A stretch of 64,000 nucleotides of DNA from Edaphobacter sp. 4G125 (GTDB taxonomy: Bacteria; Acidobacteriota; Terriglobia; Terriglobales; Acidobacteriaceae): positions 927,501 to 991,500 of the forward strand of contig NZ_CP060393.1 in assembly GCF_014274685.1 (NCBI RefSeq). The letters are read 5' to 3'. Position numbers and translations under genes: made by a program. This document shows, piece after piece, positions 33,442 through 50,826 of this stretch. The stretch's first letter is position 1; the number at the start of each line of letters is the position of its first letter. The notes beneath the pieces are model-generated. The model was not told where the DNA came from. It ran no database searches and saw only the letters and a list, made by a program, of their open reading frames with translations.

Positions 33442-34752
33442 TTACCAGGACGTCGATGCAATCACTGATGGTGGGCCGGGCTCTCCATTAATGGTATTGG
33501 TGGCAAGGACGAGTTCGAAGTTTTTGCTGGGAGTCAGGCCTTTTTCTACCATCCAAGACTTCAGCTCGTCATTGCTGGTGACAAATTCGGCGGCGGCTTG
33601 AGTTCCGCTTTTCCCGATGCCGGCGGCGATGAGAACGTGTTGTCGGATTGTGGGATCGAAGTAGTTTGCGACTATGGCATAGTCGCGCGAGTCGCTATGG
33701 ACAAGCTGCATGTTATTAAATGTCAGGATTTTGGATGGCTGCTCGTGGTCGAGGATGGAACTTGATAAGTGACCGTTACGGGAAAAGTAAAAACGTAATC
33801 CCGAGGTGAGTCGAATGGTCCAAATGTTGTCCAGGCCGCCAATGAGGATCACAGGCCCTTGGCGCAGCTCCTCGAGTGAGGTATCGGAAGAGCCTTTAAG
33901 GCGATAGCTGCGCGGGGCCCGCGTGAGCAGATCCGTGACCTTGCTATAGCTGGCAATATCACTGATTGGAACCATATCCCATTCAGTCATGCTGTCCAGC
34001 ATGGATTGCGGACCAGTGTTTGAGGAGCTAGCTGCAGGTTGATCTGTGGCGATATCGCCGCCCTGGGGACTGAGGGAGTGAACTCCCATCACGATGAGGA
34101 CCTGCTGACCTGATGAGAGGATGGGAGCCCAGAAAGTGCGAATTGGCTGCTGCTCTTTATAGCGCTTGATAAACAGGCCGGTGCACCCGAGAGCCAGTGC
34201 AGAGGCGACGATCACGAGCAGACCCCACCAAGGAAGGCCCTTTCGATCGGAAGAAGAAGCAAGGAGAGACGGGGGTACAGGATCGGAGATGGTGGTTTCT
34301 TCGGGTAAGGGCGCCACGATTTCCGTTTCGGATGTGGTGAGGTGCTCGGCAAAAGACGGCGCATGTTTTGCATGCAGAAATTGCGGGACATAGGATCCAA
34401 CGGGAAGGTAGACACGAAGTTCTTCCTCGTGGCCGGACTCCTGATAGTACTGTGCGATACGCTTACGGATCTCTCCAGCAGTGACGCGGACAATCGGATC
34501 AGCATTGGTGTCGTAATCGCTAGGCCTCCCAAAGACGTCGGTGCCGAGAGTCCGCTCTTTAAGGAGATGGGTTGCTCCGGCCAATGTCTGTTCGACGATG
34601 AAGCTCAGGAAAGAGGGGTAGCGTTTGCTGTTACGGAAGTGTCTGCTATCAATGATCTTCTCGACCTGCAGAATGATGTCTGCGCGACTAAAGGTCTCTC
34701 CCTGAATCGAGATATCACCATCGTCTGAGGGTAGGGTCTGTTGAGTTGCCAT
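33442..34752 (-). CDS. predicted membrane-bound regulator (wHTH-like / TM / periplasmic domain), TBDT-linked
   Basis: 436 aa from the ATG at 34752 (a TTG at 34770 is in frame). Residues 20-125 form a conserved domain: IDSRHFRNSKRYPSFLSFIV, LKERTLGTDVFG, then VRVTAGEIRKRIAQYY followed by LRVYLPVGSYVPQF. The last two segments look like a recognition helix and a beta-hairpin wing. One membrane helix at about 174-195 (WWGLLVIVASALALGCTGLF) precedes a 240-residue C-terminal domain. Residues VILIGGLDNIWT and HVLIAAGIGKSGTQAAAEFV align with the paralogue at 49486-50826. It diverges from the TBDT at 35003, so it probably controls it. The regulatory role is inferred. Confidence 0.75.
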   Translation of the reverse strand: MATQQTLPSDDGDISIQGETFSRADIILQVEKIIDSRHFRNSKRYPSFLSFIVEQTLAGATHLLKERTLGTDVFGRPSDYDTNADPIVRVTAGEIRKRIAQYYQESGHEEELRVYLPVGSYVPQFLHAKHAPSFAEHLTTSETEIVAPLPEETTISDPVPPSLLASSSDRKGLPWWGLLVIVASALALGCTGLFIKRYKEQQPIRTFWAPILSSGQQVLIVMGVHSLSPQGGDIATDQPAASSSNTGPQSMLDSMTEWDMVPISDIASYSKVTDLLTRAPRSYRLKGSSDTSLEELRQGPVILIGGLDNIWTIRLTSGLRFYFSRNGHLSSSILDHEQPSKILTFNNMQLVHSDSRDYAIVANYFDPTIRQHVLIAAGIGKSGTQAAAEFVTSNDELKSWMVEKGLTPSKNFELVLATNTINGEPGPPSVIASTSW

Positions 34753-34944
34753 GGCAGGACTTTTTCTCAACTCCAGTGCAGGCGAAACTTAATACTTACT
34801 ATCGGGGCGTATTATACGTCGGTTACAAGGAGTCGCGTTTCTCTATATCTATCAATAACTTAAATCACATTTTCGTATGTGTTTACCGTAAGTACCTTGG
34901 TCAAAAGTCCATCGCCTGCCTAGTGTGTTTCAACTGAAAAATCC

Positions 34945-35002: not shown

Positions 35003-38000
35003 ATGATGACTGCAACAGGAGAGAGAAAGCCAGCACTTAAGAGAGAGCTATTTCATACTAAGGTGTTCAATAGAAGACACCTGTACTATCAGGCAAGGTG
35101 CCTGATACTTCCTCTGATGATCCTTCTGTTCGCTGTTTCTGCGTCGTATGGGCAGCTGATGACGTCTGACATCCTTGGAACGGTAACGGATAGCTCAGGA
35201 GCCGAGCTACCGAATGCTACCGTCACGTTGCGCAATGTTAATACAAACGATGTTCGTATCACGACGACCAGCAGCAGCGGCGATTACTCCTTTAGTCTTC
35301 TGAAGCCCGGACGTTACAGCATCAAAGTGGAGGCCACTGGGTTCAAGACCTCAAATACCGAGTTATCGGTTGAGGCTGGCGACCGCGCACGCGCAGATGC
35401 GCACCTTGAGGTGGGTGTTGCCAGCGAAACTGTCAATGTCGAGGCGCAAACCCCGCTGCTACAGGCTGATAATGCGACCGTAAGCTCCACAGTGACGGCA
35501 AAGGCAGTGCAGGATCTGCCTCTGAATGGGCGGAACTTTGTCCAGTTGGTGCAGATTGTTCCTGGTGCTAATGAGGGGCCGGGAAATGGCCTGACCAGTG
35601 GCGGACGCCCGGATGATCGGCGTACCAATGCGGCAGGTTTTTCGGTCAATGGCCAGGATGACACGCTGAACAACTGGGTGGTCGATGGAATCGACGACAA
35701 CGAGCGCGTCATCGGCACGATTGGTATCAAGCCGAACGTTGAAGGTATCCAGGAGATCACAGTCCAGACCAACAGCTATGCTCCAGAGGCCGGCCGTACG
35801 GCAGGAGGCGTAATCAATATCACCACGCGCTCGGGCTCAAACCAGTTCCATGGCAGCCTATATGAGTTCTTCCGAAACGATATTTTCGACGGACGCAGTG
35901 TGTTGCAGACGAACGGCAGTAAGCCGGAGCTGCGCCAGAACCAGTTCGGCGGCAGCATCGGTGGACCGATTATTCGCGACAAGACCTTCTTCTACTTCGA
36001 TTACGAAGGCCTGCGGCAGGTGACGGGCGTGACGTATACGAAGACGGTTCCTACGCTGTCGGAGTACAACGCGATTAACAGCATTGGCGGGAGCTCACCC
36101 CAGCAGCTTCTGTCGGCGGCTAATGGCACGGCCGGTCGTGCCATCGATCCAATTGCATTGAACTACCTGAAGCTCTTCCCCGCGCCGAACGCCGGCCCGG
36201 TCGGACAACTGACGAACAACTACATCACGAGTCCGAATAAGACTCAGACCAGCAACACCTATGACGCTCGTGTCGACCACAAGATTGGTGCAAATGATCA
36301 ACTGTTTGGCCGGTTCTCGTACAACACAGTCAATACGTTTACACCTCCTGGACTGGGGACACAGAGCGGCTTGCAAATCAGTGGCGGTCGTTATGACTTC
36401 GATGGTCCCGCGACGGATGTAGCTCAGCAATATGTTATTGGGTATACGCATCTCTTTACATCGAACCTCGTGCTCGACCTGAGAGCAGCGTTTACACGCA
36501 TCAATAACCTCTCGCTTCCGCTGAACTATGGCAAGAATGCGAATACACAGGTTGGTTTCCCTGGGAGTCACACATTCACGGCTGTGGCGAATTCGCTGAC
36601 TCCGGTTTCGGTTGGTCCGTTCGCGGATATTGGTGACGGGGCGTATGTTCCGCTGCAAGACATTGATAACACCTTCCAATATGCTGGCACACTGAGCTGG
36701 ACTAAGGGCACTCACAATATCAAAGTGGGAGCGAGCTACATCCGCAGGCAGGCGCGCAATGTACAGAGCGCGTCAGCGACGGGAGCTTACCAATTCAATC
36801 TTCCAACCGATAGTAATGCCGACCAGTTGACACAGCAGAACAATCAACTGGCATCGACGCTGGTAGGGGCATACGCCAGCATGACACGTAACTATAACTT
36901 GTTTGCGCCGGACTATCGCACTTATGAGCCAAGCTTTTTTGCGCAGGATAGCTGGAAAGTGGTTCCAAAGCTGACCTTTGTCTATGGTGTGCGCTATGAC
37001 ATCTTCACCCCGTTTACTGAGGCACACAACCACATCTCAAACTTTGATTACCTGCAGGCGCTGGCGTCAAATGCATCGACGATCAACTCAGCGCTAAAGG
37101 TTGCTAATCAGAACGGTGTTGATGGGAGAGTGAACATTCCAATCGACTACACAAACGTGGCTCCTCGCATCGGCTTCTCGTTGTCAGTAGCTCCTACTAC
37201 TGTGGTACGCGGCGGCTATGGTCTGAGCTTCTTTCCGGGCAACTATACATCGAATGCAGACCTGAAGAATGCTCCGTTTACATCGAACTTCAGCCCTGCC
37301 TGCCAGTCTGCATTGGCAGTCCAGATTGAGACGCAGCTGGGACAACTCGCAGGACAAAACCCAAGCTGCGCAACAATTTCTGGCGCACCTACCGCCCTGG
37401 ATCAAGGTCTGCCGGTTCCGGTAGCTCCTGATATCACTAACCTTGCGGGTATTCCGGGACTCTCATTTGTGGCAGAGGCTCCGAAATTCCGCTCGGCGAT
37501 GATTCAACAGTTCAATCTGCAGATCCAACAGCAGTTTGGTGCGAACGTCTTCACGATCGGTTATGTCGGCAACATCGGCCAACATCTACCGGAGTCGATC
37601 AACAACATCAATCAGCCGAAGCCGTACAATCCACTTGCTCCGCTGGGAAGCCCAACGAATCCTGTAGGCGGCGCGCGGCCTTTGAATCCACTGCTGCCAA
37701 ATCTTTCCGGTGTCAGCTATATCGACAGTGGTGGTGTTTCGAACTACAGCGCATTGCAGGCTTCATTGCAGCGCCGCTTTACTAATGGGCTTGCCTTCGA
37801 CGCGAACTATACCTGGGGCAAGGCGATGAGTGATATCACCGGCTTCTCGCAACAGGGTTCGAACCAGGGATGGAGCAACGCCGATCCGACTCGCATTCGC
37901 CAAATCGAATACGGCATTGCCGAGAACGATATTCAGAACCGCTTCGCTCTCTCGCTGAACTACGAACTGCCGTTTGGCAAGAGCTTTACGGGAATGAAGA

Positions 38001-38521
38001 AGTTTGCTTTGGGCGGATGGCAGATGAACACGATCACCATCTGGCAGAGCGGAAAGCCATTCACAATTACCAGCACCGGAAGCGGTGCAGACAATCCTGT
38101 GGAAAGCGATGGCTTGAGGCATGGTTACAGCAACCGTGCAACACCACAGAACAGCGGCGGTAATGATCGTCCTAACCAGAATGGCGATGCTCGCGGTTCA
38201 AGGTCGAATTCGCAGTTCTTCAACACGGCAATGTTCTCTCCGCAACCTCTGGGAACAGTTGGAACTACGCATCGTAATGCGCTGTTTGGTCCTAACTTCC
38301 GTCATGTCGATCTTTCGCTATTCAAGAACTTCCCGTTAACGGAGCGGTTGAACCTGCAGTTCCGTGCAGAGAGTTACAACATCTCAAACACACCGAATTT
38401 CTATATCGGGAACGGAACTTCAACGTCACAGTTCGGCAGCGCAACCTTCGGACAAATCTCGCAGACTGATCCTAATTACACGCCACGGCTGTATCAATTT
38501 GCTCTTAAATTGCAGTTCTAA
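35003..38521 (+). CDS. TonB-dependent receptor, Oar-like
   Basis: 1172 aa from ATG 35003; a second ATG at 35006 has better spacing (5 nt) from GGAGAGG. There is a long basic N-region before the signal-peptide core (about residues 32-50, LILPLMILLFAVSASYG). The carboxypeptidase-regulatory-like domain is at 55-145 (LGTVTDSSGAELPNATVTLR). The plug is at 150-270 (LPLNGRNFVQLVQIVPGANE, then FSVNGQDDTLNNWVVDGIDD). The barrel ends in QFALKLQF. It diverges from the membrane regulator at 33442-34752. Ligand unknown. A long hairpin follows. Confidence 0.93.
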   Translation: MMTATGERKPALKRELFHTKVFNRRHLYYQARCLILPLMILLFAVSASYGQLMTSDILGTVTDSSGAELPNATVTLRNVNTNDVRITTTSSSGDYSFSLLKPGRYSIKVEATGFKTSNTELSVEAGDRARADAHLEVGVASETVNVEAQTPLLQADNATVSSTVTAKAVQDLPLNGRNFVQLVQIVPGANEGPGNGLTSGGRPDDRRTNAAGFSVNGQDDTLNNWVVDGIDDNERVIGTIGIKPNVEGIQEITVQTNSYAPEAGRTAGGVINITTRSGSNQFHGSLYEFFRNDIFDGRSVLQTNGSKPELRQNQFGGSIGGPIIRDKTFFYFDYEGLRQVTGVTYTKTVPTLSEYNAINSIGGSSPQQLLSAANGTAGRAIDPIALNYLKLFPAPNAGPVGQLTNNYITSPNKTQTSNTYDARVDHKIGANDQLFGRFSYNTVNTFTPPGLGTQSGLQISGGRYDFDGPATDVAQQYVIGYTHLFTSNLVLDLRAAFTRINNLSLPLNYGKNANTQVGFPGSHTFTAVANSLTPVSVGPFADIGDGAYVPLQDIDNTFQYAGTLSWTKGTHNIKVGASYIRRQARNVQSASATGAYQFNLPTDSNADQLTQQNNQLASTLVGAYASMTRNYNLFAPDYRTYEPSFFAQDSWKVVPKLTFVYGVRYDIFTPFTEAHNHISNFDYLQALASNASTINSALKVANQNGVDGRVNIPIDYTNVAPRIGFSLSVAPTTVVRGGYGLSFFPGNYTSNADLKNAPFTSNFSPACQSALAVQIETQLGQLAGQNPSCATISGAPTALDQGLPVPVAPDITNLAGIPGLSFVAEAPKFRSAMIQQFNLQIQQQFGANVFTIGYVGNIGQHLPESINNINQPKPYNPLAPLGSPTNPVGGARPLNPLLPNLSGVSYIDSGGVSNYSALQASLQRRFTNGLAFDANYTWGKAMSDITGFSQQGSNQGWSNADPTRIRQIEYGIAENDIQNRFALSLNYELPFGKSFTGMKKFALGGWQMNTITIWQSGKPFTITSTGSGADNPVESDGLRHGYSNRATPQNSGGNDRPNQNGDARGSRSNSQFFNTAMFSPQPLGTVGTTHRNALFGPNFRHVDLSLFKNFPLTERLNLQFRAESYNISNTPNFYIGNGTSTSQFGSATFGQISQTDPNYTPRLYQFALKLQF

Positions 38522-38655: not shown

Positions 38656-41600
38656 TCAGCGAGTGTTGTTGGTTGAAATTTTACGGGAATGCCAGAAAGT
38701 CTCTCCGCGCGTTGGATATAGGAGGCGGACAGTATTAATGGAGTAAGCTCCTACATCAACCCCAAGTTCATTCCCGTGAAGAGAGGGGTGTGAACTGGTA
38801 GCGCTATCATCTCGTTCCATCAGGTCTGTCTCGGATGCCTTTGTCGCCCCACTGGGGATTGTGAGCTTGGCCTGCGTATCTTTTCCAGCCCACTCGTAGA
38901 AACGAAGGATCAGGCTATTGCCGTCCTCGCTCTTTTTCATTGCGGTTAGAACCAGGTTTTGCGGAGTAACGCGGATAAGGGATTGTTGTGCTGGAAGGTC
39001 ACCGACGTGAGATTCGGTTTGCAAGGCCTGCATCTTGTAGTTGAATTCGTAGGCACGCAGCACAGTGTCGGCCTGCTTCCATGAACCGCCGTGCGGATAG
39101 AGCGAGTAGCTGAAGTGCTGATGCCCGCGATCGGCAGTCGGATCAGGATAGAGTGGGGCACGCAGCAGCGAGAGGCGGAGTACGTTTCCGAGCGCGTCAT
39201 AACCATACTTCGAGTCGTTGATGAGGCTGAATCCATGTTCATTGTTCCCGAGATCGGCCCAGCGTAGTGCTGGAACTTCGAAGCGAGCCGCATCAACGGA
39301 ATTATTGCGGGAGGTACTGCGCTCAATGCTTCCATAGGGAATCTCGTAGGTAGCCGTAGAGCTGGTTGCGGTGAGGGGGAAGCTGGCCTTGAGAAGAACA
39401 TGTGTCTCGTGCCAGTCGATGTCGTTGACTACGTCGACCTGAGGGGTGGCAGCGTAGAGAGTGATGTCCTGCACAAATGTGGATTTGCTCCAGTGGCGAG
39501 TGATACGAATAACTTCACGAAGCGGGCCGCGCTCGATGGTCTCGATGCTAGAGACCGCCATAAGGTCGGTTTCCTGCTTGCCGTAGTCCTTATCGATGTT
39601 CCATGCGTCTTCGACGCGGATGCTATCGAGATTATGTTCGGTAAGGCTGCGTCCGGTATCGACGAAGGTTTCAAGCTTGTTACCGCACTGACCCGGCATG
39701 ATGCTTTCGAACTTCTCGGCTTTCTGATAGAGGCTGGTGATGCAGCCTGTCTTCGGATCGAGCGTGACGCGGAGGAATGCGTTCTCCATGGTGGTTCCAT
39801 GCAGCGCGAGATCGCTCGTAACCTTGCGCTGGCCGGGGACTGCGTGGAGGACGGTATATCCGACAGAGGGTACGTTTCTGGGCTGGAGAAGCAGATGATA
39901 GGTGTTCGTTGCTTCGTCTTTGGACAATACCTGCATGAGCACAGGTTGATTGTCGGCGCCGAGTACGCTGATGCCATTGGGGGTGGGCTGGGGCATCTGC
40001 ACGGAAGCAGTGACGATGCCGGAACGGTCCCAGCTCAATGGATTCCAGATAACGATGGGTATGCCGGGTTGTGCCGCTGTGTTGATGTGACTGTTGAGTT
40101 CACGGAGTGCATCCCCTGTTGCTTCGTTGGCGATCCGATGTGCTTCGTCATAGTCGCGTTGCGCGTCCTGATATACGGCGGCGATGGCGGTTCCGGCGGC
40201 GACGTCATGGAACTCGTTGAAGGCCTTTTTCTTCCATGCTTCAGTGAGTTGTTTACCAGGATATTCGAGGCCGCTGAGCCATGCGAGCGAGGAGTATTTC
40301 TCGGCATCGAGCAGCCATTCATCACTGTGGCGCATGTTGGACTTTTGGATTGCCTGGCTGGTAAATGTACCGCGGTGATGCTCGAGATAGATTTCGTCGT
40401 TCCACACGGGCAGGTGAATCTTGCCATCGAGTTGAGCAGGAAGGTGCGTGTCACCGGCGGCTAGGGTCTTATAGTTCCAGACAGGCACTCCGGATGTGCT
40501 AATGCGCGGGTTCATATCGTTGAAGAACGATTGCGAGGTGCGGAACTCGACGCGCGGGTAGATGCGGTTGGGGTTGGACCAATGGATACCGTTCTCAATC
40601 GACTCGCGCGCGCCGGTGATGTTGAGCCGCCCGAGGCTGGGGCCGTAGACGTGCATCAGTTCTTGTTGACCTGGATTGAGCTTGATCGCAACGGCGAGGT
40701 CGCGTGCCATCTCATCGGCTTCGGTTCCTTGCACGATGTCGTGCGGGAAGTAGGAGAGGACACGGCTGCCATCGGGTGACTGCCACCAGAAGAGCTTGAG
40801 CGGGAGTTGATTGGTGTCGTTGTAACGAAGCTTCTGAGTGATGAAATAGTCGATGCCCGACTTCTTATAAATCTGCGGGAGCTGCCAATCGTAGCCGAAG
40901 GAGTCGACATTCCATCCAATTTTGACGTCGACGTTGAACTTTTGCTGGAAGTAGCGTTTACCAAGCAAAAGCTGACGGACCTGCGATTCGCCGTCGGTCA
41001 TGTTGAGGTCAGGTTCGACCCACATGCCGCCAACTAGCTCCCAGCGTCCTTCTTTTACACGTTTCTGAATTTCAGCAAATATCCCAGGGAACTTCTCTTC
41101 CATCCATTCGTAGTACTGCGCGCTGGACTGCGACAAGGTGTATTGAGGGTATTCGCGCATCATTTGAAGCGCGCTGGAGAAGGTATAGCGTACCTGGTCG
41201 ACGGCTTCGGAAGCTGTCCAAAGCCAAGCTGCGTCAATATGTGCGTCGCCGGTGAGCTGGATGAAGAATTTCTTGAGTAGCGGTTTCAAAGGCTCGAGTG
41301 CAGCTTGTGCCTTGATGAGCGAAGCGTCGAATGCAGGCTGATCGTTGCGATCGAGTGAGGCGAGACTGACAGAGGTGGCTGCGGAGTCGAGAAGCTTTTC
41401 CTGTGAGGCGAGCTCGGCCGGATCTTTGATGATGGTGGGGAGAAGTTGCGCGGCTGAGACCAACTCAGTGGCAAATGCAGTGGGATCGGGGCGAGTGGGG
41501 AGGAAGTTGACCGCGACAAAAGCACCTTCGAAATGCTTGACCTCATAGGTGAGCGGCATATGTACAGCGATCAGGACCTTATCGCCCGGCCTCGCGCTTT

Positions 41601-42087
41601 CGATGAGAGTGCGTCGCGTGAGGTATGTGCCTTCGTCGACGCGCTGGCCATTGAAATAGATAGTTTCGTAAAAATAACCGCGACCCGGACCGAAGCCGCC
41701 GACATCAATCTTGAAGGTAATACCGGTACCAGTGAGATCGTATCCGTTGAGAGTTTTGGGGATCTCGATCCAGCGGCGAAGCCAGAGCTCTTTCGGAGAG
41801 GCGTAGAAGGGGAGCTGGACTGTCTTCCAGCTGGAGGTATCGAGATCGGGGCTCTCACCGTGTTCAACAGGGCCTTCATGGTACTGCCAGTCGCGCGCGT
41901 CGAGTGCATCAAAGGAGGAGAGACGCTGGACAACAGCCTGAGCCGGAGCGGAGAACTGATAGGAGTTCGGAGAAGGGGACTGTGCCAGCAATGGAGCATA
42001 AAGGATAAAGACCGCAATCCAACCAAGTATGGAATGCTTTGCAGACAACCGAGATCTATCTGTGGAACTGTGATTTACCGAATGCAC
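38656..42087 (-). CDS. secreted GH38 alpha-mannosidase
   Basis: 1143 aa from a GTG at 42087 with GGAGG 7 nt upstream. Signal peptide core about residues 20-36 (ILGWIAVFILYAPLLA). An N-terminal beta-sandwich region (40-270) precedes the GH38 catalytic barrel: zinc ligands His283 and Asp285 in DAHIDAAW, the WVEPDLNM loop, and nucleophile Asp395 in GWNVDSFGYDW. Residues of about 530-1120 are the helical bundle and beta-domains of GH38. It cleaves terminal alpha-linked mannose and is probably periplasmic. It is the last gene of the operon that starts at 49229. Calcium- or zinc-type specificity cannot be read. Confidence 0.92.
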   Translation of the reverse strand: MHSVNHSSTDRSRLSAKHSILGWIAVFILYAPLLAQSPSPNSYQFSAPAQAVVQRLSSFDALDARDWQYHEGPVEHGESPDLDTSSWKTVQLPFYASPKELWLRRWIEIPKTLNGYDLTGTGITFKIDVGGFGPGRGYFYETIYFNGQRVDEGTYLTRRTLIESARPGDKVLIAVHMPLTYEVKHFEGAFVAVNFLPTRPDPTAFATELVSAAQLLPTIIKDPAELASQEKLLDSAATSVSLASLDRNDQPAFDASLIKAQAALEPLKPLLKKFFIQLTGDAHIDAAWLWTASEAVDQVRYTFSSALQMMREYPQYTLSQSSAQYYEWMEEKFPGIFAEIQKRVKEGRWELVGGMWVEPDLNMTDGESQVRQLLLGKRYFQQKFNVDVKIGWNVDSFGYDWQLPQIYKKSGIDYFITQKLRYNDTNQLPLKLFWWQSPDGSRVLSYFPHDIVQGTEADEMARDLAVAIKLNPGQQELMHVYGPSLGRLNITGARESIENGIHWSNPNRIYPRVEFRTSQSFFNDMNPRISTSGVPVWNYKTLAAGDTHLPAQLDGKIHLPVWNDEIYLEHHRGTFTSQAIQKSNMRHSDEWLLDAEKYSSLAWLSGLEYPGKQLTEAWKKKAFNEFHDVAAGTAIAAVYQDAQRDYDEAHRIANEATGDALRELNSHINTAAQPGIPIVIWNPLSWDRSGIVTASVQMPQPTPNGISVLGADNQPVLMQVLSKDEATNTYHLLLQPRNVPSVGYTVLHAVPGQRKVTSDLALHGTTMENAFLRVTLDPKTGCITSLYQKAEKFESIMPGQCGNKLETFVDTGRSLTEHNLDSIRVEDAWNIDKDYGKQETDLMAVSSIETIERGPLREVIRITRHWSKSTFVQDITLYAATPQVDVVNDIDWHETHVLLKASFPLTATSSTATYEIPYGSIERSTSRNNSVDAARFEVPALRWADLGNNEHGFSLINDSKYGYDALGNVLRLSLLRAPLYPDPTADRGHQHFSYSLYPHGGSWKQADTVLRAYEFNYKMQALQTESHVGDLPAQQSLIRVTPQNLVLTAMKKSEDGNSLILRFYEWAGKDTQAKLTIPSGATKASETDLMERDDSATSSHPSLHGNELGVDVGAYSINTVRLLYPTRGETFWHSRKISTNNTR

Positions 42088-42159: not shown

Positions 42160-44169
42160 TCATTTCCAGAAGATAGGCGTCGGGTTTTCTTCATAAAAAT
42201 TGATCGTTGTTGGTGTAGCCAAATCGATCAACTGGCTCAAATCAAAGGCTTGATAAAGATCGAGACAAACTAATTCGGGAGTTTCTGCGTAAGAAAACTT
42301 TCCGTTAAATAATTCAGACAAAGAAGTGATTCCTTCCTCCGCTTTGAGGGAAGAGAAGCGCTTCGGTTCCAGTGCTGCTGCTACCAGTGCCACGGCCTCG
42401 GAGCGAGGACCTTGAGTCAAGAGATCGATCTTTTGTCCTGAATAGGGAGCAGTGTATTTCACGGCTCCAGGCGAGGAACTTCCATCAGTATTTGAATCGG
42501 ATAGCCATTGGGTGACGCTAACTACTTGGGCCGCTTCGATTCCAAGCGGGCGTTCACCGACGGTATTCAGCATCTGGGCCGCGTTGCTGAGATTCGGACG
42601 TTCCGGGGTTCCGGGTATGCTATCTCCAAATAGAATCGGGTCAAGCAGTAGGACGCGATATCCCCGACTCAGCAGATTCCCCGCTTCGACTGCGAGAGAA
42701 AGGCGTCCCTTATCGGAAATCAAAAGGGCAGTCTTGTTCGTAGCTCTGACCGACGACTGCACCAGAACGCCTGTAGCGCTTAGGCCATTGCTGAACTCAA
42801 AGCGATATCCCCGACTCTCGATCCCTTTATCGCGGGAAGCACTTACCGGCCAGGCATGCGTTACATTAACTGTTTCAAATCGTGTGATGCTGCGAAGCAC
42901 TTCCCGGCTCTTCTCCAACTCAGATGGTCGGATGCGATTGTGATGGATTTGCTCCGCCATTTTTCGTGCGAGGCCGATGATCGTGAGGTTATCTTTCGGA
43001 AGACCGACAATCAGGTCTTCTGCAGAGAGCACCTCTTCATCAGTATCTGGATCTTCTTCGGCGGAGGTTTGCAGATGGAACTGGTCTTTTAAAAAGCGGT
43101 ACGATTGAAGGCGGCTATCAAGTTGATAATTGTGCGTTCCAGGATCGTCATTCTGGTACCACTGAAGATTGTCCGGATGATGGACCGCTGCATAGAAAGG
43201 CTTGATGTCATCGTAGACTCCTTGCTTTACTATGCCGGAGCGGAAGCAGCAATCATCCATCGAGTTGTAGATCAATAAGGTCGGCCGAGGTACTCGCAGC
43301 GTCATCAACTGAGCATAGTCAGCGCTCGCACGCACATCGGGGGCGTTCTGTTCAGCATCGCCTGCATATTCTGGATGCTCGACCGCAGTGGTTAACGAGC
43401 TGAACCCGGCAACTGGAATCGATGGACCAATGCGCTCATCGAGCGTGCTGAGAAGCATGGTCTGCCACCCGCCTCCGGAGAGACCTGTCATCGCGATACG
43501 TTTCCGGTCAACACGTGGATCCTCGTAAAGGAAGTCGAGTCCACGACGCATGGCGAGATAAAAGAGTCCAGCGCCATTCGCCCCTGCAAGATCAAGCAGT
43601 CCAATATTATTGTGGGCGTTTTCGCCGGAGGCCAGTTCGCCGAAGCCTATCCATTCCAAGTTCAACGCCAACATCCCGTGGCGGGCTTGATTGATGCAGC
43701 GTTTCTGTTTGTGTTCCACGGCCTTTCCACCCGGCCCGTGGCCATTCACATTCAATACGGCAGGCATGTTGGGAGTTAGATGGTCGGGTTCATAGAGCAG
43801 AGCTGCGGAATAGAAGCCGGGAACAATTTCGTAGCGATACTTGACGATTCGGTAACCTTTTCGCTCGATGACTCCGACGCGTTCAAACTTTGGGGCAGAA
43901 TTGATCCACTCTTCCGGCCAGCCATGATAGATGGTCGCAAGAGCATGTTTTCGCAATGTCTCCGCTTGTTGGTGAAGAGCTGTCTTGGAACTAGCAGGAG
44001 GAAGTGCCGGAACTTTCTTCAAAAGGAAGTGTCGCAGCTCATCGGTGACGACGGTTGGGTCCTGTAGCTTCTGTTGCAGCAGAGGATCCAGTACCTTGCG
44101 AGTGGTCTGCGCCGATAAGCCGATTGAACAGGCAAGAAGAGATAAGCCGAGTGTCCCAATCTTTTTCAT
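42160..44169 (-). CDS. secreted tandem alpha/beta hydrolase (acetyl-xylan-esterase-like)
   Basis: 669 aa from the ATG at 44169; the open frame reaches a TTG at 44226 without support. Signal peptide is residues 1-20. The first half is an alpha/beta hydrolase like CE7/CE15-type or dienelactone-hydrolase-like esterases: PAVLNVNGHGPGG, NLEWIGFGE, nucleophile Ser231 in G-L-S-G-G-G, Asp in YNSMDDC and a His candidate in DPGTHNYQLD. From about residue 450 the fold seems to repeat without a nucleophile elbow (KTALLISDKGR, GYRVLLLDPILFGDS). It follows the TBDT in the operon (70 nt) and precedes GH38 (72 nt). It may remove ester groups from the glycan. Confidence 0.82.
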   Translation of the reverse strand: MKKIGTLGLSLLACSIGLSAQTTRKVLDPLLQQKLQDPTVVTDELRHFLLKKVPALPPASSKTALHQQAETLRKHALATIYHGWPEEWINSAPKFERVGVIERKGYRIVKYRYEIVPGFYSAALLYEPDHLTPNMPAVLNVNGHGPGGKAVEHKQKRCINQARHGMLALNLEWIGFGELASGENAHNNIGLLDLAGANGAGLFYLAMRRGLDFLYEDPRVDRKRIAMTGLSGGGWQTMLLSTLDERIGPSIPVAGFSSLTTAVEHPEYAGDAEQNAPDVRASADYAQLMTLRVPRPTLLIYNSMDDCCFRSGIVKQGVYDDIKPFYAAVHHPDNLQWYQNDDPGTHNYQLDSRLQSYRFLKDQFHLQTSAEEDPDTDEEVLSAEDLIVGLPKDNLTIIGLARKMAEQIHHNRIRPSELEKSREVLRSITRFETVNVTHAWPVSASRDKGIESRGYRFEFSNGLSATGVLVQSSVRATNKTALLISDKGRLSLAVEAGNLLSRGYRVLLLDPILFGDSIPGTPERPNLSNAAQMLNTVGERPLGIEAAQVVSVTQWLSDSNTDGSSSPGAVKYTAPYSGQKIDLLTQGPRSEAVALVAAALEPKRFSSLKAEEGITSLSELFNGKFSYAETPELVCLDLYQAFDLSQLIDLATPTTINFYEENPTPIFWK

Positions 44170-44239
44170 AACGTTACTACGGTAAAGAGATTGACCTTGC
44201 GACGGAAGAGCAAACTTCCGCCGCAAGGTGTTGAGGGTA

Positions 44240-47200
44240 TTAGAAGATCAATTTCAGACCAAGCTGGCCGATGCGTGGATCGCCAGCCGACAGGATGTTT
44301 CCAAAGCCGCCACTGTTGATGGTGGCTACTGGGTCGGACAGGTTGGTGTGGTTGAGCACGTTGAAGAACTCCGCACGGAATTGGGCATGGAAGCGCTCGG
44401 CCGCACCGAAGTTCTTATAGAGGCTTACGTCCCAATTCACAAATCCCGGCCCGCGCAATGCACCTTTGCCGATGTTTCCGTACTTGTATGGATAGGCAGC
44501 ATAGGTTCCGGGATTTGTTCCGACGGCGGGAAGGGGCAGGGCGAACGAACTTTTGTTGAGCCAGTTTGCGCATGCGGTAGTTGTCGTAGCGCAGCCATTG
44601 CCACCATACGGCTTCCCTTGCAGGATCGCGCGTGGTGCGGCTCCGGTTGCGGCGACGTCCGTACCGGTGAAAATCGTATATGCATCTCCGGTGGACGCGG
44701 AAAGAAGGCCACTGGTTCCCCAGCCCCCGATCACGAATCGTGCTGCTCGTGGTACCGCATTGAAGCTTGGAAGAGTTAGGACATAGGACCCATTGAAGAT
44801 GTGGGTTCGATCGAACGGCGACGCTCCATACTCGAAGTCGCTGAATCCCGACATATAGATTGGCTGACTGAAGCTACCGCCTCCACCATTCTGTAGCGTC
44901 TGGTTCTGCGGGATATTATCCAGTGATTTTGAGTAGGTGTAGCTTGCCTGCACCGTAAAGTTGTGAGCGAAACGATGCTGCAGTGCAGCCTGGAAGGAGT
45001 GGTAACTCGAAGCTCCTGTTTGGGTGAGCATGTTGATGTTGGAATAGTTCGGCGCATACTTGGTGCGAGACATGATCGAAGCACTGGGGTTGCCGAAGAT
45101 GCTCGGATCACCCGGTATGTAGATGCCTGGATTGAGTTGCATGTCACGACGGATATGGCGACCCGATGAGCCAACATAGGAGGTTCGCAAAGACCACTGC
45201 TGGGTCAACTGCCGCTCGACGGAGAGGTTCCAGTTGTAGCTGAGAGGAACCTGGAACTTCTGTAGAGGATTGAAGGTCAGGACAGTAACCGGCAACGGAA
45301 AGGTAAAGTCCGCTGGTGCAGGATAAGGGAATGGAGGATGAGAGCTCAAACCCTGATATGGGTTGCTGAACGTTCCCGGCAACGTGGTGATAGAGATCGA
45401 GGGGCTGAAAGGATTGTTGCTGACGATTGCCTGTGTGATCTGAGAGATACCACGGGAATCGAAGAAGAGTCCAAAACCGCCGCGAACACTTGTTTTGCCA
45501 TCGCCGGTAACATCATAAGCAAAGCCGATACGAGGAGCGAAGTTCTTATAGGAAGCATTCGTGCCGCCGCGTGGGAAGCCCTGGTCGCCCGGGAACAGGA
45601 GCCCTGGAGGAGCGTTGTAATAAACCGATGAACGCCGTCCAGCAGCATAAGCGTCAGGAGAAAAGAGCTCCAGTCGACCATTGATCTCGTTCCAGGGGCG
45701 GAACGGATCGTATCGCATGCCGAGGTTTAAGGTCAGGCGAGGGAGCGGATGATAATCATCCTGGAAATATAAGCTCCAGATAGTATTCCGCGCGTTCTGG
45801 AATTGGCCACTGCTCTGGGTAAAGCTGCGCACGCGTCCGAGAAGAAAATCGGACATTGCATAACCGGTTGCATCGCCGGAGAAACCAAAGGATCCAAATC
45901 GGCGATAGTTGTTCATTACATCGAGACCGGCATTCTGCACGGACCCGCCGAAGCTGATGGAGTGACGTCCATGAACCCACTTCACATCATCGTCGAAGAT
46001 ATAGTTGACGCGAGTAAATTTTCCGAAGGGATAACTTCCAAATGAGAATAGTCCTGAAATATTGATTGATTCAATCGCTTTTGGAATTCCTGTCGGCTGA
46101 TACATATTAACGCCAAGATCGGCGTAGTTGGGCGCGTTGGATGGAGGATTCTGAGAACCGTCGACAGACGAACGCGTAAACCGGAAATCATTAAGCCACG
46201 AATTATTGAAGATATGACTTTCGCTGAACAGCAGATTCTGTGAAATGTTCGGAAATCCATCCTTATACGTCAGGATATTTCCGTTTTCATAGATCGCGGG
46301 ATTGATATAGGTGTCTCGGAAGTAACGCCCCGTAATCCGATCATGGCTGCTTAGCGTGTGATCAATGCGAATCAGTTCTTCATGGAAGTTCTGCGGTGCA
46401 TTTGGTTGAATATAGCTGGTTAGCCCATTGGGAGAAGCTGCTGAAGGCAACAGTTTTAAAGTATTGAGTGCGGCAGCATCAAAGTCCGACGTTGGAACGA
46501 TGTTTCCAGGATAGGGTTGGCCTGTTACCGGATTTTTGATTGTGATGGCCCGGCCGAGCGGATTTGCTGGATTACTTGCTGAGAGCATGGCCGAAAAATC
46601 GCCATTTAGATTGGCTGTTGTCGGCAGATAGACCCTATTTGTTGCGCTGGCACTATGGAAGATCGTGCCCTGGAAGCCAAAGAAGAAGAATGTCTTTTCA
46701 CGGCCGTCGTAGAGCTTGGGCAGGAAGACGGGGCCGCCGATCGTTCCACCAAACTGATTGCGCTTAATCGTGTCACGGCTGGTTGCTGCCCAGTTGCGAG
46801 CGTTTAATGCCGAGTTACGGATGAATTCAAAGGCAGTTCCATGCAATCGATTGGTGCCTGAGCGTGTCACTACGTTCACCACTGCACCGGAGTTTCCGCC
46901 ATATTGTGCGCTGTAGTTGCTGGTCTGAACGCTGAACTCACGAATGGAGTCTGGCATAGGAAACGGCTGGTTGACATTGGTGTACTGATCCATGTTGTCG
47001 CTGCCATCCATCAGATAGTTACTGCTGGTCTGGCGCGATCCGTTCACGGAAATGGTGACTGCTGCAGCCTGTCCGCCGACGGCTTGATTGCCGAAAGTAG
47101 ACGATTGGATGGCTCCATTTGCAGGAGCATTTACGGCTCCCGGCGCAAGCGTTGTCAGCGTAGCGGCATTCCGGCCGTTTAGTGGCAGCTCCACGATGCG

Positions 47201-47662
47201 TTCCTGATCGACGATCTGGCTGATAGTAGGTGTCGTTGTATCAATCTGAGGAGGAGCATCGCTCACCGTAACGCTTTCCGCGGTGGACTCCATATTCAAG
47301 GTGACGTCGACGGACAGCGTTTTGTCTGCTTGTAACAGGACACCGGTACGAATTGCCTGAGCGAAACCTTTGATCTCGACCTTGACCTGATATTCACTCG
47401 GGGGCAGCGAACTGATGACGTAATATCCTTGGTCATTGGTCGTCACAGAACGGGTTCGTCCCGTTGCAGTTTCAAGTGCAGTTACATGCGCAGATCCCAG
47501 AACCGCTCCAGTAGGGTCGGTGACTGTTCCGACGATCGTGCCGGAGTTCTGTGCATATGCGCTGTTCCCTGCAAAGAGAGCGAGGCAAACAAGAGCGAGC
47601 AACAGAGCCCTGATCCATATAGCTTCTGACCGTACGATCTTAAGACCGTGCGAAAGTGACAT
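44240..47662 (-). CDS. TonB-dependent receptor, Oar-like, in glycan operon
   Basis: 1140 aa, ATG at 47662 with AGGAG 6 nt upstream. Signal peptide core is about residues 18-37 (ALLLALVCLALFAGNSAYA). The carboxypeptidase-regulatory-like domain (40-125) starts with GTIVGTVTDPTGAVLGSAHV. The plug is at 140-260 (ELPLNGRNAATLTTLAPGAV, TISVNGSRQTSSNYLMDGSD). The barrel ends GQLGLKLIF. It starts 13 nt after the GH28-like gene, so the two are cotranscribed. The linked hydrolases suggest that it imports oligosaccharides. No SusD-like binding protein accompanies it. Confidence 0.94.
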   Translation of the reverse strand: MSLSHGLKIVRSEAIWIRALLLALVCLALFAGNSAYAQNSGTIVGTVTDPTGAVLGSAHVTALETATGRTRSVTTNDQGYYVISSLPPSEYQVKVEIKGFAQAIRTGVLLQADKTLSVDVTLNMESTAESVTVSDAPPQIDTTTPTISQIVDQERIVELPLNGRNAATLTTLAPGAVNAPANGAIQSSTFGNQAVGGQAAAVTISVNGSRQTSSNYLMDGSDNMDQYTNVNQPFPMPDSIREFSVQTSNYSAQYGGNSGAVVNVVTRSGTNRLHGTAFEFIRNSALNARNWAATSRDTIKRNQFGGTIGGPVFLPKLYDGREKTFFFFGFQGTIFHSASATNRVYLPTTANLNGDFSAMLSASNPANPLGRAITIKNPVTGQPYPGNIVPTSDFDAAALNTLKLLPSAASPNGLTSYIQPNAPQNFHEELIRIDHTLSSHDRITGRYFRDTYINPAIYENGNILTYKDGFPNISQNLLFSESHIFNNSWLNDFRFTRSSVDGSQNPPSNAPNYADLGVNMYQPTGIPKAIESINISGLFSFGSYPFGKFTRVNYIFDDDVKWVHGRHSISFGGSVQNAGLDVMNNYRRFGSFGFSGDATGYAMSDFLLGRVRSFTQSSGQFQNARNTIWSLYFQDDYHPLPRLTLNLGMRYDPFRPWNEINGRLELFSPDAYAAGRRSSVYYNAPPGLLFPGDQGFPRGGTNASYKNFAPRIGFAYDVTGDGKTSVRGGFGLFFDSRGISQITQAIVSNNPFSPSISITTLPGTFSNPYQGLSSHPPFPYPAPADFTFPLPVTVLTFNPLQKFQVPLSYNWNLSVERQLTQQWSLRTSYVGSSGRHIRRDMQLNPGIYIPGDPSIFGNPSASIMSRTKYAPNYSNINMLTQTGASSYHSFQAALQHRFAHNFTVQASYTYSKSLDNIPQNQTLQNGGGGSFSQPIYMSGFSDFEYGASPFDRTHIFNGSYVLTLPSFNAVPRAARFVIGGWGTSGLLSASTGDAYTIFTGTDVAATGAAPRAILQGKPYGGNGCATTTTACANWLNKSSFALPLPAVGTNPGTYAAYPYKYGNIGKGALRGPGFVNWDVSLYKNFGAAERFHAQFRAEFFNVLNHTNLSDPVATINSGGFGNILSAGDPRIGQLGLKLIF

Positions 47663-47675
47663 GAGATTCTCCTGG

Positions 47676-49229
47676 TTATTGTGTTGTGTGTTGGATGGAA
47701 CCAGCCTTCACATCGGCGGAGATCTCTACTCGATTATGAATGGCCGCGGAGGTTGCGCTAGGAAATCGCAAGTCCGCGCTCCGTGAGCCGCTGATACGGC
47801 AGAAGTTGGTCTCTGCAAGCTCCACGCTGGAGTTGCGGTTGTTATGAAGCCAGAATGTCGGCTTGGATTGGGCAGAGGTTTCGACCGAGGCGAGTTTGAG
47901 ATTCACCGTATCGTCGGCCACTATGATTGGTAGTCTCTCGTCCTCTGTTGCCTCGACGGTGAACTGGCGAATGCTCACATCGCTGACGTGTCGAAGAAAT
48001 ATTCCATGCGCAGGCAGAGGGCCAAACATAACGGGTTCGGGATAGCTGCCAGGATGTTCGGGAATATCGCTGATGGACGAGGTCCCCTTGATCTTACCCG
48101 CTAGGGTGACCTGGATACCCTGAATCGAGACTCCGACAACGGGCGCATCTGGAAGACCAGCGATCACGCTCGGCAATTTTGCTTCCGTCGCAACGATGTC
48201 AGAGATCCTAATCGAGGTTACGCTTCCAGGACCGGCACCAAAACCGCAGCGATCGCGATTGCCGCGTAGAACAGTAAATGGGGTTCCGACGCGGTTCATC
48301 ACGATATTAGAGGCGGAAATATTGGAAAGTTCTCCTCCGTCTACCGTGTAAAAGGCGAGCCCAGGGTTTCCATGCCGCATCCCCACGCCTCCCTCGAAAA
48401 CGCAATTCGAGATGGCGATCTGACGAAAATTCCCACAGCTTTCGGTACCGCATTTGAAGTAGCAGCTGGCGGTTCGCAGTATGCAGTTGTCGACGGTGAC
48501 GTACTCCGTTGCTCTTCGTTCGCCGAGTGCTCCGCTGGCCTTCAATACAATCGTGTCGTCGTAGGACTCAACAAAGCAGTTGGATATGCGTACATGGCGG
48601 CAGCAGTCTGGATCGATCCCATCGGAGAGGCCGTTCCGAATGGTGACATTATCAATAGTTACAAAGTCGCACCCAAGCAGGCTGATGTTGTAGCTTGGGG
48701 CGTTCCGTATCGTAATGTCCCGCACCAGAACGTTGCTACAACGGCGAAGCGCGATCGGTTTGGGGCCACCAGACTTGGTATATTCGCAGTCAATCTCTCC
48801 ATCACCAATAATAGAAACGTGTTCGAGCCCATCCCCCACGATCAGGGCGACGCGGAAGTTTGAGGTTGCGAAGTTGGCCTTCGGATCATAAGCGAGCCTC
48901 TCGGGAGGAAGAAATTCCGCTGAATTCTTGCTCATCACCAGCGTTGCCCCATTTCCGAGCCAGAGGGTTACCCTAGAGCGCAGCTGGAGGGTTCCGGAGA
49001 TATATCTTCCAGCGGGGAGATAAACCGTCCCTCCCCCGGACTTAGAAATCTGATCGATCGCCCTTTGAATGCGAGGGGTATCTGTTTGTTCTGTCGGCCG
49101 ACTTGACCCTGGCGTGATACTGGCGATTCCAGCCGGAGCAGCCATCGCCACAGGAAGTCCGACGGCAGCCTTCAGGAACTGTCGCCGCGACGGTTGACTG
49201 TGGCCCGTTGATTGTCCTTGTTTCAGCAC
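47676..49229 (-). CDS. Tat-exported GH28-like right-handed beta-helix protein
   Basis: 517 aa. Twin-arginine signal SRRQFLKAAVGLP (14-26). The body is a pectin-lyase-like beta-helix: GGGTVYLPAGRYISGTLQLR, IIGDGEIDC, and many NVTIRN-type turns. GH28 landmarks are partly kept: D203-G-I-D206 (SDGIDPDCC) and D224-D225 (YDDTIVLKAS). The catalytic His of the polygalacturonase GHG motif is replaced, as the equivalent segment reads KCGTES. It is therefore GH28-like with a divergent active site. It heads the operon, and the regulator diverges from it. Possible substrates are pectic or other acidic glycans. Start at 49229 not strongly supported by a ribosome-binding site. Confidence 0.83.
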   Translation of the reverse strand: MLKQGQSTGHSQPSRRQFLKAAVGLPVAMAAPAGIASITPGSSRPTEQTDTPRIQRAIDQISKSGGGTVYLPAGRYISGTLQLRSRVTLWLGNGATLVMSKNSAEFLPPERLAYDPKANFATSNFRVALIVGDGLEHVSIIGDGEIDCEYTKSGGPKPIALRRCSNVLVRDITIRNAPSYNISLLGCDFVTIDNVTIRNGLSDGIDPDCCRHVRISNCFVESYDDTIVLKASGALGERRATEYVTVDNCILRTASCYFKCGTESCGNFRQIAISNCVFEGGVGMRHGNPGLAFYTVDGGELSNISASNIVMNRVGTPFTVLRGNRDRCGFGAGPGSVTSIRISDIVATEAKLPSVIAGLPDAPVVGVSIQGIQVTLAGKIKGTSSISDIPEHPGSYPEPVMFGPLPAHGIFLRHVSDVSIRQFTVEATEDERLPIIVADDTVNLKLASVETSAQSKPTFWLHNNRNSSVELAETNFCRISGSRSADLRFPSATSAAIHNRVEISADVKAGSIQHTTQ

Positions 49230-49485
49230 AGGAAATCCGATCCTTCATCACGGCCTTCGTTTCAAAGGAAAGGAGTGATGGCTTTGGTTTATGCGTGGCT
49301 TAAGGGCAACATAGAGATTTGTTTGCGGGGGTTCCAGTCAATTCACCGAAACATAAATATGACATTTATTTTCAGTAAGATGACCGATGTGAAAAAGGTT
49401 AAATCAGGGGATAAACATGTGGTGTTCATGTGATTGCCTTCTCTTTACAGAGAATCAGTAGAATGAAAGACATTCATTCAAGGGT

Positions 49486-50826
49486 GTGAGGCAATCCTGC
49501 TTGCAATCACAAGAGACATTGTCTCCAACGACAAAGCGCGAACTGGTGCAACGCATTATTGCTTCAGGACCATTCAGCAAGTCAGAGCGACTTTCCAGTT
49601 TTTTGTTGCACATCTGTGAACTTGAAATACAGGGACGAGCCGCCGAATTGAGTGAAAAGGAGATCGGCCACTCAGTCTTTCGGCTGCCGATTGACTACGA
49701 TCCGAGTGCCGATGGAATCGTTCGTTCCCATGCCAGCCGCCTGAGACGCAGACTTGAAATGTATTACATGCGCGAAGGGTGTGAAGAACACCTTCGCATC
49801 GTCATTCCCCGGGGAAGTTACCAGCCGAGATTCGAACGGATCGAGCGTAGTTCTGCGGCAATGCAGGCAGGTCAAGCGGAGACTTTAGCAGAAAATGATG
49901 GCATTGAGCCCTCGTCTGCTTCTTTAAAAGAGCTGCAGAAGGGTGCTGATCTACCGAAACCGGTTGAGGTTGCTTTCCGTGGTGTACCTTGGCGCGGGAT
50001 TGCAGCTGCGTTCATCGTGGCTAGCCTGATCGCTGCAGTTTTGCTTTTTCGACACTTCCGTGCCGTGGATCGGACGCAAGTCTCGCCGTTAGCGGCAATG
50101 TTTACGAAGGATAGACCTACGATTCTGGTACCAGGGGACAGCGGCCTTGTCGTATGGCAGGAAACACAACACAAGAACCTGACCCTGTCGGACTACTTGG
50201 CTTCCAACTACGACAAAAACCACGAAGGGCCCATCAGTCCGGAACAGCAACTAGCGCTCACACTGCTGGGCCGACGGTATACGTCGATGGTTGATCTGGA
50301 GATCGTTCAGAATCTCTCAAATCTTGCACGAAGCTATAACGTTGAACCTCTTCTACGTTTTGCGCGTGATGTTCGTCCGAACGATCTGAAATATAACAAT
50401 GTAGTTCTCATCGGCAGCAGCGAAACGAATCCCTGGAATCAGATGTTTCAGGGAGCAATGAATTTTGTGCTGACGAAGGATCAGCAAAGAACCGTCTATA
50501 CGATCGAGAACCGACATCCCACGCATGGAGAACCAGACCGGTGGCTTTCGGACCCGGCGGAGCGGTTACGGACCGCCTATTGCAAAGTGTCATTCCTGGC
50601 GAATCCTTCGGGAGAGGGAAATGTTCTTGTCCTCGAAGGAACTTCCATGGCTGGAACGGAGTGCGCATGGGAGTTTATCTCGAATCAGGAGAGGCTAAAA
50701 CAGTTTCTGAGGGCGGCTGGTTGGACAGCTCACCAGGCCCCGCATTTTGAAGCTCTTCTTTGGACCAGCAATCTCGGTGGGAACGCTGCCACAAGTGCAA
50801 TCGTTGCATGGCGCATCGGAAATTAG
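49486..50826 (+). CDS. predicted membrane-bound regulator (wHTH-like / TM / periplasmic domain), glycan-operon-linked
   Basis: 446 aa from a GTG at 49486 (start uncertain; a TTG at 49501 is possible). Residues 15-117 carry the domain shared with 33442-34752: KSERLSSFLLHICE, LSEKEIGHSVF, DYDPSADGIVR, recognition-helix-like SHASRLRRRLEMYY and wing-like LRIVIPRGSYQPRF. The order and the helix-wing spacing resemble OmpR/ToxR-type winged helices. A membrane helix (170-188, GIAAAFIVASLIAAVLLF) is followed by a 250-residue periplasmic domain with NVVLIGSSETNPWNQ and NVLVLEGTSMAGTECAWEFI. It diverges from the GH28-like gene by 256 nt and is expected to control that operon (inference). Confidence 0.75.
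   Translation: MRQSCLQSQETLSPTTKRELVQRIIASGPFSKSERLSSFLLHICELEIQGRAAELSEKEIGHSVFRLPIDYDPSADGIVRSHASRLRRRLEMYYMREGCEEHLRIVIPRGSYQPRFERIERSSAAMQAGQAETLAENDGIEPSSASLKELQKGADLPKPVEVAFRGVPWRGIAAAFIVASLIAAVLLFRHFRAVDRTQVSPLAAMFTKDRPTILVPGDSGLVVWQETQHKNLTLSDYLASNYDKNHEGPISPEQQLALTLLGRRYTSMVDLEIVQNLSNLARSYNVEPLLRFARDVRPNDLKYNNVVLIGSSETNPWNQMFQGAMNFVLTKDQQRTVYTIENRHPTHGEPDRWLSDPAERLRTAYCKVSFLANPSGEGNVLVLEGTSMAGTECAWEFISNQERLKQFLRAAGWTAHQAPHFEALLWTSNLGGNAATSAIVAWRIGN

Follow-up and report, generated by a model that had tools for sequence, protein, structure and literature searches.

P0001, a single-pass membrane transcription regulator encoded in the window (the whole 64-kb stretch of DNA analysed), belongs to a large family whose genes nearly always lie beside genes for TonB-dependent receptors (TBDTs), and an identical 20-mer found at P0001 and at a distal TBDT gene suggests a control circuit that had gone unseen and that can be tested. 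We consider it probable that the family members are ToxR/CadC-like transmembrane one-component regulators (as defined in PMC5430869) that exert feed-forward control through regulator-specific operators, and that the distal TBDT was the ancestral target of P0001. More tentatively, and leaning slightly against it, we entertain a broader proposal in which this regulator family, present throughout Acidobacteriaceae and sparsely in other Acidobacteriota, connects single TonB receptors with their substrates by regulator-specific operators, regulators are swapped between receptor operons and the sensor may read the receptor's cargo or transport state. The genes concerned are as follows.

49486-50826, plus strand: P0001, single-pass membrane transcription regulator of 446 residues with a GTG start, having a paralogue in P0002 and orthologues elsewhere
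33442-34770, minus strand: P0002, paralogous membrane regulator, 26% identical to P0001 over its whole length (E=3e-32)
47676-49229, minus strand: GH28-like enzyme, first gene of the operon divergent from P0001 (PF00295, E=1.5e-11)
44240-47662, minus strand: Oar-type TBDT of the GH28 operon (PF25183, E=1.6e-212)
42160-44226, minus strand: esterase-like alpha/beta hydrolase (sub-cut-off matches to Abhydrolase_7, Peptidase_S9 and AXE1)
38656-42087, minus strand: GH38 alpha-mannosidase (PF01074, E=3.6e-70)
35003-38521, plus strand: Oar-type TBDT divergent from P0002 and 232 bp from it (PF25183, E=6.1e-220)

P0001 and P0002 are full-length paralogues, their BLASTP alignment (114 bits) being nearly full-length. 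An earlier note on this DNA had claimed a common three-part design and had quoted segments of the two periplasmic parts, and these segments do align by BLASTP. That note had placed the second protein at 33442-34752 with no strand; the protein exists on the minus strand, and its 442 residues are obtained by taking the longest possible start, at 34770. Gene order and strands confirmed that P0001 diverges from the minus-strand run of GH28-like, TBDT, esterase-like and GH38 genes and that P0002 also diverges from a TBDT gene, giving the two divergent regulator-TBDT pairings that had been reported. For the GH28-like enzyme the nearest NCBIfam models, under cut-off, are rhamnogalacturonidases, and the TBDT of its operon has a PF25183 barrel plus a CarboxypepD_reg domain. 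Scans of P0001 and P0002 gave no Pfam or NCBIfam matches, including none to kinase, receiver, AraC-type or FecR domains in Pfam, and 50 homologues of the family likewise gave no NCBIfam matches. A search of the literature outside paywalls found no description of the family.

Both regulators are predicted to span the membrane with one helix, which joins a winged-helix-like domain in the cytoplasm to an unclassified domain in the periplasm. The parts of P0001 are as follows.

49531-49836, plus strand: cytoplasmic winged-helix-like DNA-binding domain, residues 16-117 (AF2 model, structural match to SaeR)
49990-50055, plus strand: transmembrane helix, about residues 169-190 (AF2 model, hydropathy)
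50071-50823, plus strand: putative periplasmic sensor domain, residues 196-446 (domain profile)

In the AF2 model residues 16-117 fold into a helical domain that ends in a wing (pLDDT 80-90), followed by a long helix (169-199) and an alpha/beta domain of lower certainty. Structurally, the N-terminal part came closest to the DNA-binding domain of the response regulator SaeR (83 residues, rmsd 3.1, Z 6.9), and the model has no N-terminal beta sheet of the kind that OmpR-type domains usually carry. At the sequence level Trans_reg_C was a weak top match in 7 of 41 homologues (E=0.023, under the Pfam threshold), hhalign gave the OmpR-type assignment a probability of 3.6%, and PDB sequence searches, including one with the wHTH, gave no match. 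The homologues have a pattern, R-x-x-A-x-x-LR-x-RL...IPRGxYxPxF, which we take to resemble the OmpR recognition helix and wing and which also aligned to a response regulator found in the same loci. A hydropathy scan detected exactly one transmembrane segment in 94 of 103 family sequences. The roughly 250 residues that follow the helix in P0001 are conserved as a domain by profile and are predicted to act as a periplasmic sensor. Structure prediction took only the window proteins and loci L044-L047 as input, giving shallow seven-row alignments, and the sensor model was poor (pLDDT 60) because only seven sequences were usable. Fold searches with this low-confidence model yielded nothing usable (the best E from Foldseek was 0.009 and VIA-align stayed under Z 5), and a gelsolin-like fold was rejected since its rows reached only Z 4 and were regarded as noise. 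Note that the sensor of one homologue (L074, residues 297-399) gave a weak match to archaeal S_layer_C (E=4e-4, under cut-off), as was seen in 6 of the 50 homologues.

Acidobacteriota abound in soil as decomposers and encode dozens of TBDTs in each genome, and in the literature searched, which lay outside paywalls, we found no description of how these TBDTs are regulated. Of 297 Acidobacteriota genomes, 32 matched the sensor-domain profile; 27 of the 32 belong to the same family as the window and five do not. The homologue scan of the genome collection used a single protein as query. The nearest named relatives are from Edaphobacter (78%) and Terriglobus (59%). The source genome (G000) has 64 TBDTs and seven members of the regulator family, six of which lie less than 3 kb from a TBDT (about one expected, p about 5e-5). 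One of the seven is divided between two frames that overlap (L011:4311-5704, G000:1662810-1664203), a 229-residue wHTH part and a 275-residue sensor part; it adjoins a TBDT and is a pseudogene, a frameshift or a sequencing error.

The earlier note had proposed a recurring "regulator plus Oar-type receptor" module and had named random scatter of homologues relative to TBDT genes as the finding that would speak against it. We therefore took 20-kb regions round family members irrespective of their neighbours, with genes defined as longest ORFs and TBDTs detected by a profile built from the source genome. A TBDT lay within two genes of 72 of the 87 family members but of only 4 of 98 control genes, which were taken from regions placed arbitrarily in these genomes (Fisher p about 7e-31). 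Such a TBDT was present for 40/51 members from the own-genus set, 22/26 from the family's other genera and 10/10 from beyond the family, and 32 of 40 regulators were so placed after clustering at 40% identity. In orientation 59 of the 72 pairs are divergent and 13 have the TBDT downstream on the same strand, with no convergent pair and none with the TBDT upstream of the regulator. The module is thus real. Regulators and their adjacent TBDTs agreed in nearest neighbour in 34 of 67 pairs, where within-genome permutation would give about 6, and therefore recent pairs were inherited together; the correlation of regulator with TBDT divergence over all distances was about zero, only the nearest-neighbour test being informative. 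Proteins in which the wHTH is joined to other periplasmic parts lay near a TBDT in 7 of 19 cases. Those with PD40 beta-propellers adjoin TBDTs, whereas most TPR types and the malectin type do not. Four of the PD40 fusions (L090, L091, L106 and L099) are divergent beside TBDTs with upstream regions lacking the family operator, and the fusion to malectin, a carbohydrate-binding domain (L097:8460-10106), has no TBDT near it.

Among 49 scanned operon neighbours the recurrent families were phosphodiesterase (6), GH92 (5), sulfatase (5), GH106 (2) and PI-PLC (2), and none of these five appeared in the family list of 45 control genes. As phosphodiesterases, sulfatases and PI-PLC recur alongside GH92 and GH106, "glycan operon" covers only part of the targets. 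It had also been suggested that the module could replace the regulators of Bacteroidota. As a general statement this fails because about seven regulators for 64 TBDTs cannot be a general replacement and leave most TBDTs to other control; what stands is that FecR-type coupling is nearly absent, the source genome having two FecR domains, neither of them near a TBDT.

De novo analysis of 65 non-redundant regulator upstream regions gave the partly palindromic motif TTTcACnGTGAAtnnnCTg, with a log-likelihood of 168 against 90-98 in four shuffles. When trained on the own-genus set, the motif scored at least 12 in 7 of 28 upstream regions of other genera and families and in 0 of 85 control divergent regions (p=9e-7); half of this training-independent set scored under about 7. 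The comparison on the TBDT side gave p=0.017 one way and 0.35 the other and is weak because there were only four controls. With the window and the P0001 orthologues left out of training, the best match in the 64 kb fell at 49333-49356, in the gap between P0001 and the GH28-like gene, and the fifth-best at 34878-34901, between P0002 and its TBDT. Intergenic DNA is AT-richer than genes, which somewhat favours an AT-rich motif, a bias that the divergent-region controls guard against.

49333-49352, minus strand: putative P0001 operator GTTTCGGTGAATTGACTGGA, reading towards the GH28-like gene (top motif match of the 64 kb)
34878-34901, plus strand: putative P0002 operator TGTGTTTACCGTAAGTACCTTGGT (fifth-best motif match of the 64 kb)

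The 20-bp core of the putative P0002 operator has no second copy in the genome even when three mismatches are allowed. The motif is not a general mark of TBDT promoters: with the source genome left out of training, 38 of 40 TBDTs having no adjacent regulator scored under 12, and the two scoring at least 12 carry the site of a specific regulator, L206 the 20-mer of P0001 and L219 the site of the regulator at G000:2950903. The latter match explains that regulator's apparent want of an adjacent TBDT. The site of the 2950903 regulator also precedes the operon divergent from it and another gene close by. Three copies of this variant lie within 13 kb (L010:7338, L010:10868 and G000:2961464) and precede a glyoxalase/3-keto-disaccharide hydrolase gene, a sugar isomerase-like/MFS operon and a TBDT, an arrangement that suggests a local regulon.

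The 20-mer GTTTCGGTGAATTGACTGGA has only two copies in 4.25 Mb (8e-6 expected), one beside P0001 and the other at G000:1827029-1827048, about 140 bp before a TBDT gene (G000:1827190-1830681, L206) 850 kb from P0001. Genomes G001, G012, G242 and G272 each have exactly one copy, beside the P0001 orthologue, whereas five genomes without an orthologue have none, and the reversed pattern was never found. The TBDTs divergent from the G001 and G012 orthologues are 81% and 79% identical, respectively, to the distal TBDT, and each is followed by a type I phosphodiesterase gene (with Pfam support in G001). The TBDT of the GH28 operon is only 26-27% identical to these orthologue-facing TBDTs and 27% identical to the distal one. 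Moreover, in G012 an operon of GH28 (64% identity) and TBDT (81% over the first 490 residues) faces another family member (L260). The high identity of the distal TBDT, the low identity of the GH28 TBDT and the G012 synteny therefore mark the distal TBDT as the ancestral partner of P0001. The GH28 operon as conserved partner of P0001 was ruled out by synteny, as the G001 and G012 orthologues face the other TBDT. Hence P0001 does adjoin the operon at whose head the earlier note had put it, but that operon is not its conserved partner. In the stretch L250:9691-13771 (G000:1827190-1831270) a cupin gene comes after the distal TBDT, the phosphodiesterase of the relatives being absent there. The gap beside P0001 contains a further shared element.

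49300-49416, minus strand: conserved promoter block common to the distal TBDT promoter (alignment of seven promoters)

This block has local matches at 77-84% identity to the distal TBDT promoter and stops some 70 bp short of the start codon of the GH28-like gene. The GH28 operon thus seems, from the sequence comparison, to have come under the P0001 promoter later. In the simplest history P0001 parted from its own TBDT and kept the promoter block, and the GH28 operon moved in behind, P0001 taking the place of that operon's own former regulator.

In the mechanism that we propose, each family member would recognize its own variant of TTTcACnGTGAAtnnnCTg beside its own gene and, in the traced cases, a further copy ahead of the TBDT operon under its control. 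The TBDT would import a substrate into the periplasm, or its enzymes would release a product there; this substrate or product would be bound by the sensor, and the wHTH would then activate transcription of the TBDT and enzyme genes with neither phosphorylation nor a sigma factor. The analysis shows the paralogy, the architecture, the co-localisation, the motif, the sharing of operators and the exchange of synteny, and from these we infer direct DNA binding, activation rather than repression, a periplasmic ligand and feed-forward control. Of the possible modes of action, the most likely is that a one-component regulator in the membrane senses a periplasmic product of uptake and activates transcription.

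The regulator could instead repress the promoter until a signal releases it. In G242 and G272 no TBDT adjoins the P0001 orthologue and the upstream operator is still conserved, which suits autorepression, and partly palindromic sites fit repressors and activators alike. Repression is nevertheless rather unlikely, as CadC, a studied membrane-bound regulator of like architecture, is an activator (PMC5430869). Moreover, in the traced cases some 100 to 145 bp separate the candidate site from the start codon downstream of it, and a search of the P0001-GH28 gap revealed no promoter of the sigma-70 type, both of which suit an activator-dependent promoter. Somewhat less likely again is that the sensor contacts the TBDT itself, through the plug or the CarboxypepD_reg domain, and so detects the state of transport, much as FecR receives its signal from FecA, with the DNA-binding domain in the same protein. 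Close gene pairing and co-inheritance would agree with such contact, and the plug was the only TBDT part to track regulator divergence above permutation, weakly (16 and 18 of 500). However, with eight tests made the plug signal is marginal, overall regulator and TBDT divergence are uncorrelated, and the distal and GH28-operon TBDTs, unrelated at 27%, would both have to signal to one sensor. Finally, it is improbable that some other transcription factor, encoded elsewhere, uses the operator and that the membrane protein merely adjoins it: operators were assigned from sequence, and a palindromic motif is unusual for OmpR-type proteins, but the P0001 variant occurs only in genomes with a P0001 orthologue and beside it, the variant of the 2950903 regulator is found in that regulator's own 13-kb neighbourhood, and strong sites are absent upstream of the wHTH-only proteins of beta-propeller, TPR and malectin types.

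The proposed regulator-specific operators make a specific prediction: P0001 should bind its 20-mer both beside its own gene and at the locus 850 kb away, and if the circuit is true, binding of its wHTH to GTTTCGGTGAATTGACTGGA at both loci should depend on TTTCGGTGAA. Together with this prediction the analysis supplies a set of regulators and their likely operators. Should the operators be confirmed, regulator-receptor pairing could link orphan receptors to regulators and to substrates.

Like ToxR and CadC, P0001 has a single transmembrane helix and no phosphorelay domain, and it is predicted to have an N-terminal winged-helix-like DNA-binding domain and a C-terminal periplasmic domain. Unlike them, its putative DNA-binding domain falls under the Trans_reg_C cut-off and is predicted without the N-terminal beta sheet, the putative family sensor is unrelated, unclassified and tied to TBDT operons, and there are several paralogues per genome, each with its own putative operator. 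As the beta sheet is missing from the model, we describe P0001 as working like ToxR/CadC rather than filing it as a member of that group. The FecA/FecR/FecI system (TBDT, anti-sigma and ECF sigma) resembles the P0001 family in that a membrane regulator gene adjoins the TBDT that it would control, but the P0001 system has neither a FecR domain nor a sigma factor. The hybrid two-component and SusR-type regulators of Bacteroidota PULs differ in that P0001 is a one-component protein with a single transmembrane helix and no kinase or receiver, and a Pfam scan of the four GH28-operon proteins, which include a TBDT, detected no SusD. As with those regulators, periplasmic sensing is predicted here to drive the transcription of an operon that encodes a receptor and CAZymes. 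If this is true, the P0001 family would provide a third route coupling outer-membrane uptake to transcription, beside the FecR/ECF and hybrid two-component systems.
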